Shown here piece by piece: positions 8,644 to 13,311 of a stretch of DNA of 64,000 bases (position 1 is its first letter; each line of letters begins with the position of its first letter). The notes below the pieces were generated by a model. It had not been told where the DNA came from, did not search any database, and worked only from the letters and a program-made list of their open reading frames with translations. Position numbers and translations under genes: made by a program. The DNA is from Fundidesulfovibrio magnetotacticus (GTDB taxonomy: Bacteria; Desulfobacterota; Desulfovibrionia; Desulfovibrionales; Desulfovibrionaceae), in NCBI RefSeq assembly GCF_013019105.1, contig NZ_BLTE01000002.1, forward strand, positions 62,001 through 126,000. The letters are read 5' to 3'.

Positions 8644-9255
8644 CTAACCGACCAGTTTCTTGGCGATCTGGGCCACGTGGCGGCCCTGCCAGCGCGCCCC
8701 GGCCAGGTCCGCGTCCGAGGGCAGGCGCGAGCCGTCGCCCCCGGCGATGGTGGTGGCCCCGTAGGGCGAACCGCCCTTCACTTCCTCCACGCCCATCTGG
8801 CCCTGGTAGGCGTAGGGCAGCCCCACAACCACCATGCCCTGGTGCAGGAGCGTCACGTGGAAGGTGAGGATGGTGGACTCCTGCCCGCCGTGCTGCGTGG
8901 CGGAGCTGGCGAACACGGAGCCCGCCTTGCCCACCAGCGCCCCCTGCATCCACAGCTGGCCCGTGGAATCCAGGAACTGGCGCATCTGGCCGCACATGTT
9001 GCCGAAGCGCGTGGGCGTGCCGAAGATGATCGCATCCGCCTTGGCCAGCTCCTCCACGGTGCACACGGGCACGTGGGCCTGGGCCTTCTGGGCCTCCAGA
9101 GCGCCCATCTTGGCCAGCACCTCGTCGGGCAGGGTCTCGGGCACACGGCGGATCAGGGCGCTGGCCCCGTCAACCTCGGCCACGCCCGCGGCCACGGCCT
9201 GGGCCATGGCGTGGATGTGTCCGTACATGGAATAGTAGACGATGAGCACGTTCAT
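8644..9255 (-). CDS. wrbA: NAD(P)H:quinone oxidoreductase, WrbA type
   Basis: A 203-residue flavodoxin-like WrbA, the normal family length. Motifs: the FMN loop [12 protein letters not shown] (7-18), [41 protein letters not shown], and the C-terminal [11 protein letters not shown]. WrbA enzymes reduce quinones by two electrons and avoid semiquinone radicals. The ATG at 9255 has GGAGG upstream. It is transcribed toward the quinone-related operon at 7.6-8.5 kb, making this a small redox-defence cluster. Confidence 0.93.
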
Positions 9256-9324
9256 GGATCGCCTCCGTCGCGATGTTTGAACTCCTCCTACCACGGAAAA
9301 GAAGCCTTGGACACCTCCGTTTCG

Positions 9325-9353
9325 TTGACAGCCGCCCGGCCCGGGCGTAGAGG
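9325..9353 (+). promoter_or_regulatory. kup promoter
   Basis: TTGACA (9325-9330), 17-bp spacer, TAGAGG (9348-9353). The expected start of transcription, near 9360, coincides with the 5' end of the riboswitch aptamer. Confidence 0.6.
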
Positions 9354-9362
9354 CCGGGCCAT

Positions 9363-9515
9363 GCAGCCGAATCCCGCCCGGGGCGGGAGCGGGGGAACCA
9401 CCACGTCGAGCGGGAGCTTCGCCTCCCCCACGGCAGGGGCGCATCGCGGCAACGCGTAGGGCACCTTTCGGCCCGAGCCCGTCAGCTAACCTCGCAGGCT
9501 TCGAAGGGGAGACCT
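9363..9515 (+). ncRNA. c-di-AMP riboswitch (ydaO/yuaA motif)
   Basis: The leader of kup carries the conserved blocks of the ydaO/yuaA class in the right order: GCCGAATCC (9366-9374), GGGGGAACCA (9391-9400), GGGGCGCATC (about 9436-9445), GTAGGGCACCTTTCGGCCCG, and the hallmark GTCAGCTAACCTCGCAGGC (9481-9499), then GGGGAGACC. A short P1 can form between AGCC (9365-9368) and GGCT (9497-9500). This class binds two c-di-AMP molecules and usually switches potassium or cell-wall genes off when c-di-AMP is high. Gene context (potassium uptake) agrees fully. Confidence 0.9.
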
Positions 9516-9524
9516 CCGCCTCGC

Positions 9525-9547
9525 GGGGGCCGCCCTGGCCCCTGTTT
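9525..9547 (+). promoter_or_regulatory. Possible expression-platform hairpin of the kup riboswitch
   Basis: GGGGCC (9526-9531), 5-nt loop, GGCCCC (9537-9542), followed by TGTTT and then the kup Shine-Dalgarno CGGAGG (9549-9554). It could act as a weak terminator that forms when the aptamer is ligand-bound; the short T tract leaves this open. Confidence 0.45.
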
Positions 9548-9559
9548 CCGGAGGTTTCC

Positions 9560-11476
9560 ATGTCTTCCTGTTCCCTGCCGGGGGACGGCCCGGCCCATGG
9601 CCACGGGGCCTGCTCCCCGCGAGAGACCGCATCCCTGGCCCTGGCCGCCCTGGGCATCGTCTACGGCGACATCGGCACCAGCCCCCTCTACACCGTCAAG
9701 GAATGCTTCCACGGCATGCACGCCGTGGCCGTCACGCCGGGCAACGTGCTGGGCGTGCTCTCGCTCATCTTCTGGTCGCTGACCATGGTGGTCAGCTTCA
9801 AGTACGTGGTGTTCATCCTGCGCGCGGACAACAAGGGCGAGGGCGGCATCTTCGCCCTGCTGGCCATGCTGCGCTCCGGCCCCGCCAGCAAGGGGCGGCA
9901 CTGGCCGCACATGATGCTCATGGCCGCCTTCGGCGCTGCGCTGCTTTACGGCGACGGCGTGATCACCCCCGCCATCTCGGTGCTCTCGGCCATCGAGGGC
10001 CTGGAGGTGGCCACGGCGGCGGCCAAGGACTTCGTGGCCCCGCTCACCTGCGTGGTGCTGGTGGGGCTCTTCATGTTCCAGAAGCACGGCACGGCCTCCA
10101 TCGGCCGGGTGTTCGGGCCGGTGATGATCCTTTGGTTCGCCGTGATCGGGGGTCTGGGGGCCGTGGAGATCGCAGGCCACCCGGGCATCCTGGCGGCGCT
10201 GAACCCCCTGTATGCCTGGGATTTCTTCGCCGTGAACCACCTGCACGGCATCGTGGTGCTGGGCTCGGTGGTGCTGTGCATCACCGGCGGCGAGGCCCTC
10301 TACGCCGACATGGGCCACTTCGGGCGCAACCCCATCCGCATCTCCTGGTACGCCGTGGTGCTCCCGGGGCTTCTGCTCAACTACTTCGGCCAGGGCGCTC
10401 TGCTCCTGGACGACCCTGAAAAGGCCTTCAACCCCTTCTACGGTCTGGTGCCCGAGGCCCTGCTCTACCCCATGGTGGCGCTCTCCACGGCGGCCACCAT
10501 CATCGCCTCCCAGGCGCTCATTTCGGGGGTCTATTCGCTCACGCAGCAGGCCATCCAGCTGGGCTTCACCCCGCGCATGCGCATCGTGCACACCTCCGAG
10601 CGCGCGGCGGGCCAGATCTACATGCCCACGGTGAACTGGCTGCTCATGCTGGCCTGCCTGGGGCTGGTGCTGGCCTTCCAGGAATCCAGCCGCCTTGCGG
10701 CGGCCTACGGCATCGCGGTCACGGCCACCATGGCCATCACGTCCATCCTCTATTTCGAAGTGGCCAGGCTCAACTGGAAATGGCCCACCGGCCGGGCGGC
10801 CTGCCTGCTGGTGGTGTTCCTGGCCTTCGACCTGGCCTTCCTTGGGGCCAACCTCCTCAAGTTCGTGGACGGGGGCTGGTTCACCCTGAGCCTGGCCCTG
10901 GGCGTGCTGGCGGTGATGGTCACGTGGCGCGACGGCCGCTCCTTCCTGGCCAGGCACTACGGCCGCATGCGCGTGCCCGTGGACGTGTTCCTGCGCGACG
11001 TGGCGGCGCATCCGCCCGTGCGCACCCCGGGCACGGCGGTGTTCATGTCCATCTCGCCCGAGGGCGTGCCCCACACGCTCCTGCACCACCTCAAGCACGA
11101 GGAGGCGCTGCACGAGCGCGTGGTGCTGCTCTCCATCCTCGCCGCCGAGACCCCCCGCGTGGACGACGCCCACCGCGTGGAGGCCCAGGCCCTGGGACAG
11201 GGCTTCTACCGCCTGACGGCCCGCTACGGTTTCATGGAGACGCCCAACGTCACGGACATCCTGGAACTGGCCGGGGAAAAAGACTTGTACCTGGACGTTT
11301 ACGCCACTTCCTTCTATCTTGGCCGGGAGACGCTGCTCACCTCGGGCGACTCCGGCATGGCCAACTGGCGCAAGACGCTCTTCGCGTTCCTCTCGCGCAA
11401 CGCCTGGAACGCCACATCGTTCTTCGGCATCCCGCCGGGGCGCGTGGTGGAACTGGGCAACCAGGTGGAAATCTAG
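9560..11476 (+). CDS. kup: Low-affinity potassium uptake protein Kup
   Basis: A 638-residue proton-coupled K+ importer of the HAK/KUP/KT family, near E. coli Kup (622). It has about 12 membrane helices in residues 25-440 and a soluble C-terminal third. Motifs: [17 protein letters not shown] (32-48), the [18 protein letters not shown] signature, and [18 protein letters not shown] precedes the ATG. The gene sits behind a c-di-AMP riboswitch, so import is expected to fall when c-di-AMP rises. A YidE/AspT-type carrier follows 158 bp downstream and may be cotranscribed. Confidence 0.95.
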
Positions 11477-11634
11477 GCCGGACGGCCCCCGGCCTGCGGC
11501 CCTCGGGCGAGCGCGATCCCGGCGCGCCGCGGCCGGACGGGCATCGGGTCCGGCCGGACGGCGCGCGGGCGAAGCGCCGGTCCAACGCCCGCACACCACG
11601 CCCGCCCGACCATGGGTCAGGCGGCGGAGACGCC

Positions 11635-13311
11635 ATGAACTGGTTCGCGCAGTTGTTCACGAATCACACCCCCGCCCAGGCCGTGGTGGTCCTGAGCCTG
11701 GCGGTGGTGCTTGGCCTGGCCCTGGGCAGGGTGCGGGTGATGGGCATCAGCCTGGGCGTGGGGGGCGTGCTCTTCAGCGCCCTGGCCCTGGGGCACCTGG
11801 GATTCTCCCTGAACCACGAGGTGATGGAGTTCGCCCGGGAGTTCGGGCTCATCCTCTTCGTCTACACCATCGGCATGCAGGTTGGGCCCGGTTTCGCGGA
11901 CTCACTGCGCCGCCGGGGCTTCCGGCTCAACGCCATGGCCGCGCTCATCGTGGCCCTGGGCGTGGCCATCACGGCGCTTCTGCACGTGTACGGCGGGCTC
12001 CCCGTGCCCGTGGCCGTGGGGCTCTTCAGCGGCGGCACCACCAACACGCCCTCCCTGGCGGCGGCCGCCCAGGCCTTCCAGGAGGTCATGCCCCAGGGCG
12101 CGGCCCAGGCCGTGGGCGAGGCGGGCCTGGGCTACGCGGTGGCCTACCCCTTCGGCATCTTCGGCATCATCCTGGTGATGCTCCTCATCCGCCTGATCTT
12201 CCGCATCGACCCGGCCCGCGAGCTGCGCCAGATGGAGGAGATGGCCCGCGCCCAGTCCCCGCCCCTGGAGACCGTGACCCTCGAGGTGGCCAACCCCGGC
12301 CTGGAGGGCCTGACCCTGGGCCAGGCCCCGGGCCTGACGGAGACCGGCGCGGCCGTTTCGCGCGTGATGCTGGCGGGCCAGGTGAGCGTGGCCGTGCCCT
12401 CCACCGTGCTCCGGCAGGGGATGCTCCTGCACGCGGTGGGACGCCCCGACGTGCTGGAGAAGCTCGCCGTGCTGGTTGGCCGCGTGAGCCGGACCCACCT
12501 GCCCGCCGTGCCCGGCCCCCTGGAGATGCGCCGCTTCGTGATCACGCGCTCCCAGGTGGTGGGCAAGAGCGTGGCGGAGCTCAAGCTGGCCGAGACCTTC
12601 GAGGTGAACCCCACGCGCCTTGGCCGCGCGGGCATGCAGTTCACCCCCGGCCCCGACGTGCACCTGCACCTGGGCGACGTGCTCCAGGTGGTGGGCCAGC
12701 CCGAGCGCCTGGCCCAGGTGGAGCGCCTGCTGGGCAACCAGGCCAAGGACCTGGACCACCCCCACGTGCTGCCCATCTTTCTGGGCATCCTGCTGGGCAC
12801 GGTGGCCGGGGCCATCCCCGTGGCCCTGCCGGGGCTGCCCTCGGGCATCAAGCTCGGCGTGGCGGGGGGGCCGCTCCTGGTGTCCATCCTCCTGTCGCGG
12901 CTGCACCACTTCGGGGGGCTGGTGTGGTACATGCACCCCGGGGCGAATCTCATCCTTCGCGAGGTGGGCATCAGCCTCTTCCTGGGCTGCGTGGGCCTTG
13001 GCGCGGGCGGACGCTTCGTGGCGGCCATCGCCGGGGGCGAGGGGCTCTACTGGCTGGCGGCCGGGGCGGCCATCACCTTCGTGCCGCTCTTCGTGGCCGG
13101 GCTCATCGGGCGCGTGTTCCTCAAGTGCAACTACGCCTCCATGTGCGGCCTGCTGGCCGGGTCCATGACCGATCCGCCCGCCCTGGCCTTCGCCGGGCAG
13201 ATGCTGAAAAGCGACGCCCCGGCCTCGGTGTACGCCACGGTCTACCCTTTGGTGATGATCCTTCGCATCCTGGCCGGGCAGCTCCTGGTGCTGCTCATGG
13301 CCTCCGGCTGA
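11635..13311 (+). CDS. AspT/YidE/YbjL-type transporter with two RCK_C domains
   Basis: A 558-residue inner-membrane protein with the duplicated 'aspartate-alanine antiporter' fold. N-terminal helices cover about residues 15-185 (FSGGTTNTPSLAAAAQAF is the family motif); two TrkA-C/RCK_C regulatory domains lie between about 205 and 370; a second helix block with LGCVGLGAGGRFVAA and AGSMTDPPALAFA follows. RCK_C domains often bind nucleotides, including c-di-AMP in some bacteria, which is suggestive next to the riboswitch-controlled kup. Substrate unknown (anion or amino acid). It starts at ATG 11635 after GGCGGAGA. Confidence 0.88.
   Translation: MNWFAQLFTNHTPAQAVVVLSLAVVLGLALGRVRVMGISLGVGGVLFSALALGHLGFSLNHEVMEFAREFGLILFVYTIGMQVGPGFADSLRRRGFRLNAMAALIVALGVAITALLHVYGGLPVPVAVGLFSGGTTNTPSLAAAAQAFQEVMPQGAAQAVGEAGLGYAVAYPFGIFGIILVMLLIRLIFRIDPARELRQMEEMARAQSPPLETVTLEVANPGLEGLTLGQAPGLTETGAAVSRVMLAGQVSVAVPSTVLRQGMLLHAVGRPDVLEKLAVLVGRVSRTHLPAVPGPLEMRRFVITRSQVVGKSVAELKLAETFEVNPTRLGRAGMQFTPGPDVHLHLGDVLQVVGQPERLAQVERLLGNQAKDLDHPHVLPIFLGILLGTVAGAIPVALPGLPSGIKLGVAGGPLLVSILLSRLHHFGGLVWYMHPGANLILREVGISLFLGCVGLGAGGRFVAAIAGGEGLYWLAAGAAITFVPLFVAGLIGRVFLKCNYASMCGLLAGSMTDPPALAFAGQMLKSDAPASVYATVYPLVMILRILAGQLLVLLMASG

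Follow-up and report, generated by a model that had tools for sequence, protein, structure and literature searches.

The window, the stretch of 64,000 nucleotides of Fundidesulfovibrio magnetotacticus DNA analyzed here, carries the gene of the K+ importer Kup on the forward strand. The kup product matches PF02705 (E 3e-189), PF22776 (E 6e-48) and, above the cut-off, TIGR00794. Its nearest named relatives belong to the Desulfobacterota, in a comparison from which records near the window were possibly left out. A gene for an AspT/YidE-like transporter starts 158 nt downstream of kup. The kup leader contains a promoter, a c-di-AMP riboswitch aptamer and, directly behind the aptamer, a helix that encloses the Shine-Dalgarno (SD) sequence of kup. 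The individual features are as follows.

9325-9353, forward strand: promoter TTGACA-N17-TAGAGG (letters checked; TTGAC conserved at matching distance from P1)
9355-9515, forward strand: c-di-AMP riboswitch aptamer, RF00379 (cmscan 74.3 bits, E 2.1e-15)
9365-9368, forward strand: 5' strand of P1, partner 9497-9500 (cmscan alignment)
9389-9395, forward strand: 5' strand of P2, GCGGGGG, of which 9389-9394 pair with 9490-9495 (cmscan alignment, letters checked)
9401-9429, forward strand: insertion in the optional stem, bounds approximate, about 28 insert letters (cmscan alignment)
9464-9470, forward strand: hairpin loop CCTTTCG, docks with the tail 9502-9508 (duplex -10.7 kcal/mol; covariation)
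9490-9499, forward strand: 3' strand of P2 and most of the 3' strand of P1; proposed 5' arm of an anti-sequestor (cmscan alignment; duplex; fold)
9502-9508, forward strand: aptamer tail CGAAGGG, docks with the loop 9464-9470 (loop-tail covariation)
9508-9518, forward strand: 5' arm of the sequestering helix with the anti-SD CCTCC at 9513-9517 (fold of 9504-9562)
9518-9528, forward strand: proposed 3' arm of the anti-sequestor; GCGGGGG at 9523-9529 repeats the 5' strand of P2 (duplex, letters, fold)
9549-9559, forward strand: 3' arm pairing with 9508-9518 in the sequestering helix; includes GGAGG (9550-9554), the Shine-Dalgarno of kup (fold)
9560-11476, forward strand: kup, K+ importer of the K_trans family (PF02705, PF22776, TIGR00794)
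11635-13311, forward strand: AspT/YidE-like transporter with one TrkA_C stretch, the neighbor of kup (PF06826, PF02080)

A preliminary description of this DNA had placed a c-di-AMP riboswitch ahead of kup and named a score against RF00379 (ydaO/yuaA) as the check. This check was clearly positive: the match lies far above the gathering score of 38 bits and covers the complete model from position 1 to 134, with two non-standard pairs flagged in the alignment. It is the sole gathering-level match to Rfam within the 64-kb window, and within the whole genome of 4.46 Mb RF00379 was reported only once, at the kup leader. The leader letters GTCAGCTAACCTCGCAGGC are located at 9481-9499. The aptamer match ends 44 nt before the start of kup, and the leader of a K+ or osmotic gene is the setting of this class. 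Among eight RF00379 matches in the genus of the window the score is the lowest (the other seven range from 77.8 to 102.2), probably because of the insert letters in the optional stem, an insertion that is shorter in most relatives among the matches listed. The window aptamer is confirmed as a real and well-preserved member of a known riboswitch class.

Pairing of a hairpin loop with the tail 3' of P1 is a feature of the RF00379 class. In the kup leader the corresponding loop and tail form a helix of 7 bp including one G-U pair. The covariation of these two elements was analyzed with 31 unique leader pairs, after one of 63 leaders had been dropped since its loop was not recognizable. Loops combined with their own tails gave a mean of -10.2 versus -7.9 +/- 0.3 for exchanged partners (p 1e-4; this and all other Fisher and permutation values given here overstate the significance because the leaders share ancestry).

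The promoter of the preliminary description is present with TTGACA at 9325-9330, a 17 nt spacer and TAGAGG at 9348-9353, upstream of the aptamer. A consensus scan of 9200-11700 called no promoter-like site and missed this one because TAGAGG is far from TATAAT. The motif TTGAC is located 35-45 nt 5' of the first P1 bases at 49 of the 53 riboswitch places in the order, and only 144 of 14540 twenty-base stretches from the same loci contain it (about 1%), which demonstrates that the promoter is conserved. At one further place (G202:C1) TTGAC lies slightly beyond this range.

The genome encodes two proteins with a DAC domain. The first, a CdaA-type protein of 259 aa with CdaA_N and DAC domains, adjoins a YbbR protein and reaches 188.6 bits against TIGR00159, just below the cut-off of 188.8. 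The second has the architecture DACND-DACNH-DAC with a much weaker DAC domain (37 bits). Candidate phosphodiesterases are a PgpH-type protein (7TMR-HDED, 7TM, HD) and a DHH-DHHA1 protein. As judged from their domains, the CdaA-type and the DACND-DACNH-DAC genes support that the organism can produce c-di-AMP. The preliminary description had counted a missing diadenylate cyclase, together with missing ligand binding, against its riboswitch reading, and with the CdaA-type gene such a cyclase is present. Of the 297 genomes of the order, 281 have DAC; among the 40 with the riboswitch it is present in 39, the exception being G222, a genome in 820 contigs; given this base rate, the presence of a cyclase fits the reading and discriminates little. 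Apart from this question, the second DAC protein (locus L002, 1414-2850, reverse strand) carries the sensor domains DACND and DACNH, and its score against an anti-phage family was 58.5 bits, far under the cut-off of 630.

Of the sampled genomes, 40 of 297 in the order, distributed over 7 of 55 genera, and 52 of 395 in the phylum contain RF00379, 51 of the latter above the cut-off. The 53 places in the order precede kup (27), kimA-like genes (21) or nuoA (5). For this assignment Pfam was applied to the Kup protein of the window as well as to two kimA-like proteins and a NuoA (L008, L126, L014), and the other targets were assigned by sequence likeness; one kimA-like protein matches the solved KimA structure 6s3k (9e-58). 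A riboswitch is located upstream of kup in at least 13 of 80 named kup relatives, a lower bound because some loci include little upstream DNA and the match at L044 ends at a contig edge. In these 13 relatives, which come from Desulfoprunum, Desulfobulbus, Desulfobulbaceae, Desulfocapsaceae, Desulfopila aestuarii, Desulfobacca, Syntrophales and unplaced Deltaproteobacteria, the riboswitch is separated from the kup match by about 65-500 nt. RF00379 was not found at the two Solidesulfovibrio kup loci (L056, L057). Two of the kup riboswitches (L131 at 1501-1738 and its counterpart in L132, from G135 and G136) have an AT-rich insertion of about 100 nt in an aptamer hairpin, and their RF00379 matches span 238 nt. 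A 2019 paper (PMC6488665) already mentions in its introduction that links of c-di-AMP riboswitches with kup had been predicted for several phyla, Proteobacteria among them. The view of the preliminary description that the class is unusual in this group did therefore not hold in the light of these frequencies and predictions: the kup-linked RF00379 element of the window adds one more member to a known class, and the linkage is not exceptional.

Directly after the aptamer, GGAGACCUCCG (9508-9518) pairs with CGGAGGUUUCC (9549-9559) to form a helix of 11 bp with one G-U pair. This helix encloses the kup SD and reaches the start codon, and its interior is filled by a GC-rich hairpin. Folding of 9504-9562 yielded -39.7 compared to a shuffle mean of -25.5 (z -4.2, p 0.005), a value that beats all 200 shuffles, and the paired probability of the SD was 1.00. 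The leader has thus the form of an SD-sequestering platform, with the SD in the helix and the other arm adjoining the aptamer. Tested as a duplex only, SD pairing in the window had p 0.067, higher than the p value of the whole segment because the SD stretch used here left out the last 3 nt ahead of the start codon, truncating the helix; over 39 leaders this duplex test reached a Fisher value of 3e-13.

The 39 representative leaders comprise kup, kimA and nuo leaders and were chosen from 63 usable of 66 (G135:C2, G250:C75:9219 and L064 had no usable start or contained N). Start codons were assigned by rule and in seven leaders by hand. Platform folds of this set range from z 0.7 to -4.5, with the window among the lowest, and the combined Fisher value was 4e-17 with 20 of 39 below 0.05; in one of the leaders (G125) the low p value originates from a hairpin without the SD. 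The SD is paired with a probability of at least 0.9 in 26 of the 39 leaders, whereas shuffling of the sequence upstream of the SD leads to an expectation of 9.4. In addition, covariation was detected between the arms adjacent to the SD (46 unique, p 1e-4). For this test the 63 leaders were combined with 12 of 13 hand-picked phylum leaders; 9 of these 75 lack a contiguous anti-SD and 2 lack an SD motif. Of 30 phylum loci with RF00379, 28 were examined, the other two being already covered by the order leaders; a sequence anchor was lacking in 7 of these 28. The sequestering helix is therefore conserved beyond the window.

The sequestering hairpin, or a Rho-dependent step, could instead end the RNA before kup, so that the riboswitch would act on transcription as in Bacillus leaders. 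We consider this unlikely, since a scan of 9200-11700 for intrinsic terminators listed no terminator-like site (1.0 expected in shuffles), GGAGG is followed by TTT only, within the helix, and this helix contains the SD and extends to the start codon. Termination has been demonstrated for the kdp leader of Bacillus thuringiensis according to the part of PMC6488665 available, and it would also suit the T run after the SD helix in G111 and the phylum leaders L161 and L177, in which a stem precedes T5 or T6 by eye. For the window a terminator-type ydaO platform was rejected, with no terminator-like site between aptamer and kup. As a separate observation made by eye, the riboswitch is followed by a stem and a T-run in L161, L177 and L153, and judging from these sequences terminator and SD-sequestering platforms may coexist in the phylum.

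For the ligand-free state of the proposed translational switch we identified a candidate pairing of CCUCGCAGGC (9490-9499) with GCCUCGCGGGG (9518-9528). This duplex of 10 bp with one bulged C has an energy of -18.7 kcal/mol (shuffle p 0.014 for the window), and the platform stretch GCGGGGG at 9523-9529 is an exact copy of the 5' strand of P2 at 9389-9395. The pairing would occupy the 3' strand of P2, three of the four 3' bases of P1 and also, within the sequestering helix, the 5' arm of the inner hairpin. Transcripts ending at 9530 and 9532 are predicted to adopt this pairing. At the ends 9536 and 9540 it is gone and CCTCC (9513-9517) pairs with 9525-9529, which would likewise keep CCTCC off the SD. 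Other pairs are predicted for the ends 9545 and 9550, and at 9556 the SD helix is formed. A P2 mimic of the type [CT]GGGG is present in the platform of 23 of 28 order leaders versus 7.1 +/- 1.8 in shuffles, and these letters double as part of the inner hairpin. The energy of the anti-sequestor is weak over the family, with Fisher p values of 0.045 for the 39 leaders and 0.006 for the 28 order leaders. A different pairing of tail and mid segments (type GGGAAAGC:GCTTTTCCC) was rejected for the window (p 0.77). It gave p values of 0.005 for L034, 0.020 for L113, 0.022 for L065, 0.035 for L063 and 0.09 for G125, with a Fisher p of 0.004 over 39 leaders; the anti-sequestor may differ between the window and other lineages.

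The predicted full-length fold of the ligand-free leader is already sequestered, with a paired probability of 1.00 for the SD. Switching is therefore taken to be kinetic or to depend on interactions that the folding program lacks. This fold, the lowest score within the genus and the insertion in the optional stem would also agree with an aptamer that is kept while the switch has become constitutive or decayed in this strain and kup is always weakly translated. Such a loss of function appears quite improbable to us: the match covers the whole model with only two non-standard pairs, the platform z value is among the lowest of the 39 leaders, and the insertion is located in a stem that is variable in the family.

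Taken together, we regard it as probable that the riboswitch represses the translation of kup. In other bacteria, plentiful K+ raises the level of c-di-AMP. Accordingly wired, the kup leader would respond as follows, where we infer the binding of the ligand, the OFF sign and the anti-sequestor step. Plentiful K+ would increase c-di-AMP, which would bind to the aptamer. In the bound state P1, P2 and the loop-tail helix 9464-9470:9502-9508 would form, and the adjoining helix 9508-9518:9549-9559 would bury the kup SD and switch translation off. Without ligand, the nascent RNA would pair the 3' strand of P2 and P1 (9490-9499) with the copy of the 5' strand of P2 (9518-9528); this anti-sequestor would break the aptamer and delay the sequestering helix, and kup would be translated.

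The preliminary description had further proposed a second level of control through the AspT/YidE carrier and its RCK_C domains. Pfam detected a single TrkA_C (RCK_C) stretch in this protein (E 1.3e-15). That the carrier is a c-di-AMP receptor which acts in addition to the riboswitch on kup would be in line with this stretch and with the RCK_C domains of KtrA and KhtT, which bind c-di-AMP (PMC10284832, as far as the text is accessible). We nevertheless think it very unlikely. TrkA_C is widespread (13 of 14 control genomes), AspT is unmentioned in the c-di-AMP/RCK_C literature among the matches listed, and no aspT relative was found next to kup at any of 86 other loci, which comprise 6 related riboswitch-kup loci with about 5 kb or more of downstream DNA and 80 named kup loci with at most 3 kb and in some cases almost none. 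With this lack of linkage and the distance of 158 nt between the two genes, the second control level was not upheld, and the AspT-like gene is probably not part of the riboswitch system.

In relatives, the riboswitch occurs in two further arrangements. All nine kimA-like genes of genus g2 (L126 at 1501-1787, G250, G269, G257, G211, G191, G053, G084 and G287) have a leader ORF of 29-37 codons between riboswitch and kimA. The start of this ORF is at the sequestered SD, its end lies 9-14 nt upstream of kimA, and its stop abuts the kimA Shine-Dalgarno or lies within two bases of it. From its position the arrangement looks like translational coupling. Seven leaders of g7 and g30 contain ORFs of 29-40 codons, but here the gaps amount to 55-147 nt, and in the kimA leaders G202:C2, G148, G082 and G267 no leader ORF was found by the rule; G135:C2 was left out of this count. 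In G005, G211 and G084 of g2 the first residues of the leader ORF resemble the start of kup from the same genome, and this resemblance suggests a module that may have been copied.

The second arrangement was found in genus g51 of family f4, where the riboswitch is located before nuoA in 5 of 16 genomes (L007, L010, L014, L015 and L025). NuoA was assigned by PF00507 in L014, and the next genes in L141 belong to complex I (49-kDa, NADHdh, chain 4L and Proton_antipo_M families). The gap between riboswitch and nuoA contains an ORF, for which the start was chosen by hand, of 49 codons in four cases and of 63 codons in the fifth. A reading of the T7-T9 runs in the nuo leaders as terminators was not upheld by the terminator scan: at the sites listed for L007, L010 and L014, CCTC pairs with a G-run beyond the T-run, which lies inside the hairpin, and in L015 and L025 the scanner detected no terminator-like site by T-run. 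Respiration genes are a possible c-di-AMP target in g51, and among the matches listed no title or abstract start connects a c-di-AMP riboswitch with NADH or a nuo operon. More tentatively, and with somewhat less than even confidence, we propose that the riboswitch of this group became a translational module consisting of SD burial and P2 decoy, which would have been copied together with the start region to the kimA leader ORF, with coupling, and to the nuo operon. If true, respiration would be tied to the K+ signal by the nuo placement. The c-di-AMP regulon would be widened by the two arrangements, kimA leader ORF and nuo, if these are confirmed.

The kup leader is a well-formed and testable c-di-AMP riboswitch, and among the matches listed in CC-licensed PMC papers (titles and abstract starts) there was no study of such a riboswitch in Desulfovibrio or relatives. 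From this leader, c-di-AMP appears to follow its usual K+ logic in this group. With the ydaO/yuaA leaders of Bacillus (kimA, ktrAB, kdp) the window shares the aptamer family, the expected ligand, K+ import as target and the expected OFF sign. The B. thuringiensis kdp leader differs in ending in an intrinsic terminator, as described in the available sections of PMC6488665, whereas in the window the SD is buried, no terminator-like site was found and the platform predicts translational control of kup. The kup-linked riboswitches predicted earlier and cited there have the same aptamer family and target gene. The accessible part of a 2024 review (PMC10907184) places ydaO among the 'interdomain docking' riboswitches with translational control, with the bound aptamer docked to the platform and the ribosome-binding site occluded. 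The same is proposed here for the window, and the docking of its loop with the tail agrees with this grouping. In contrast to that group, the window platform also has an exact copy of the 5' strand of P2, a possible decoy. The new detail is thus the likely mechanism, an SD within an 11-bp helix combined with this exact repeat.
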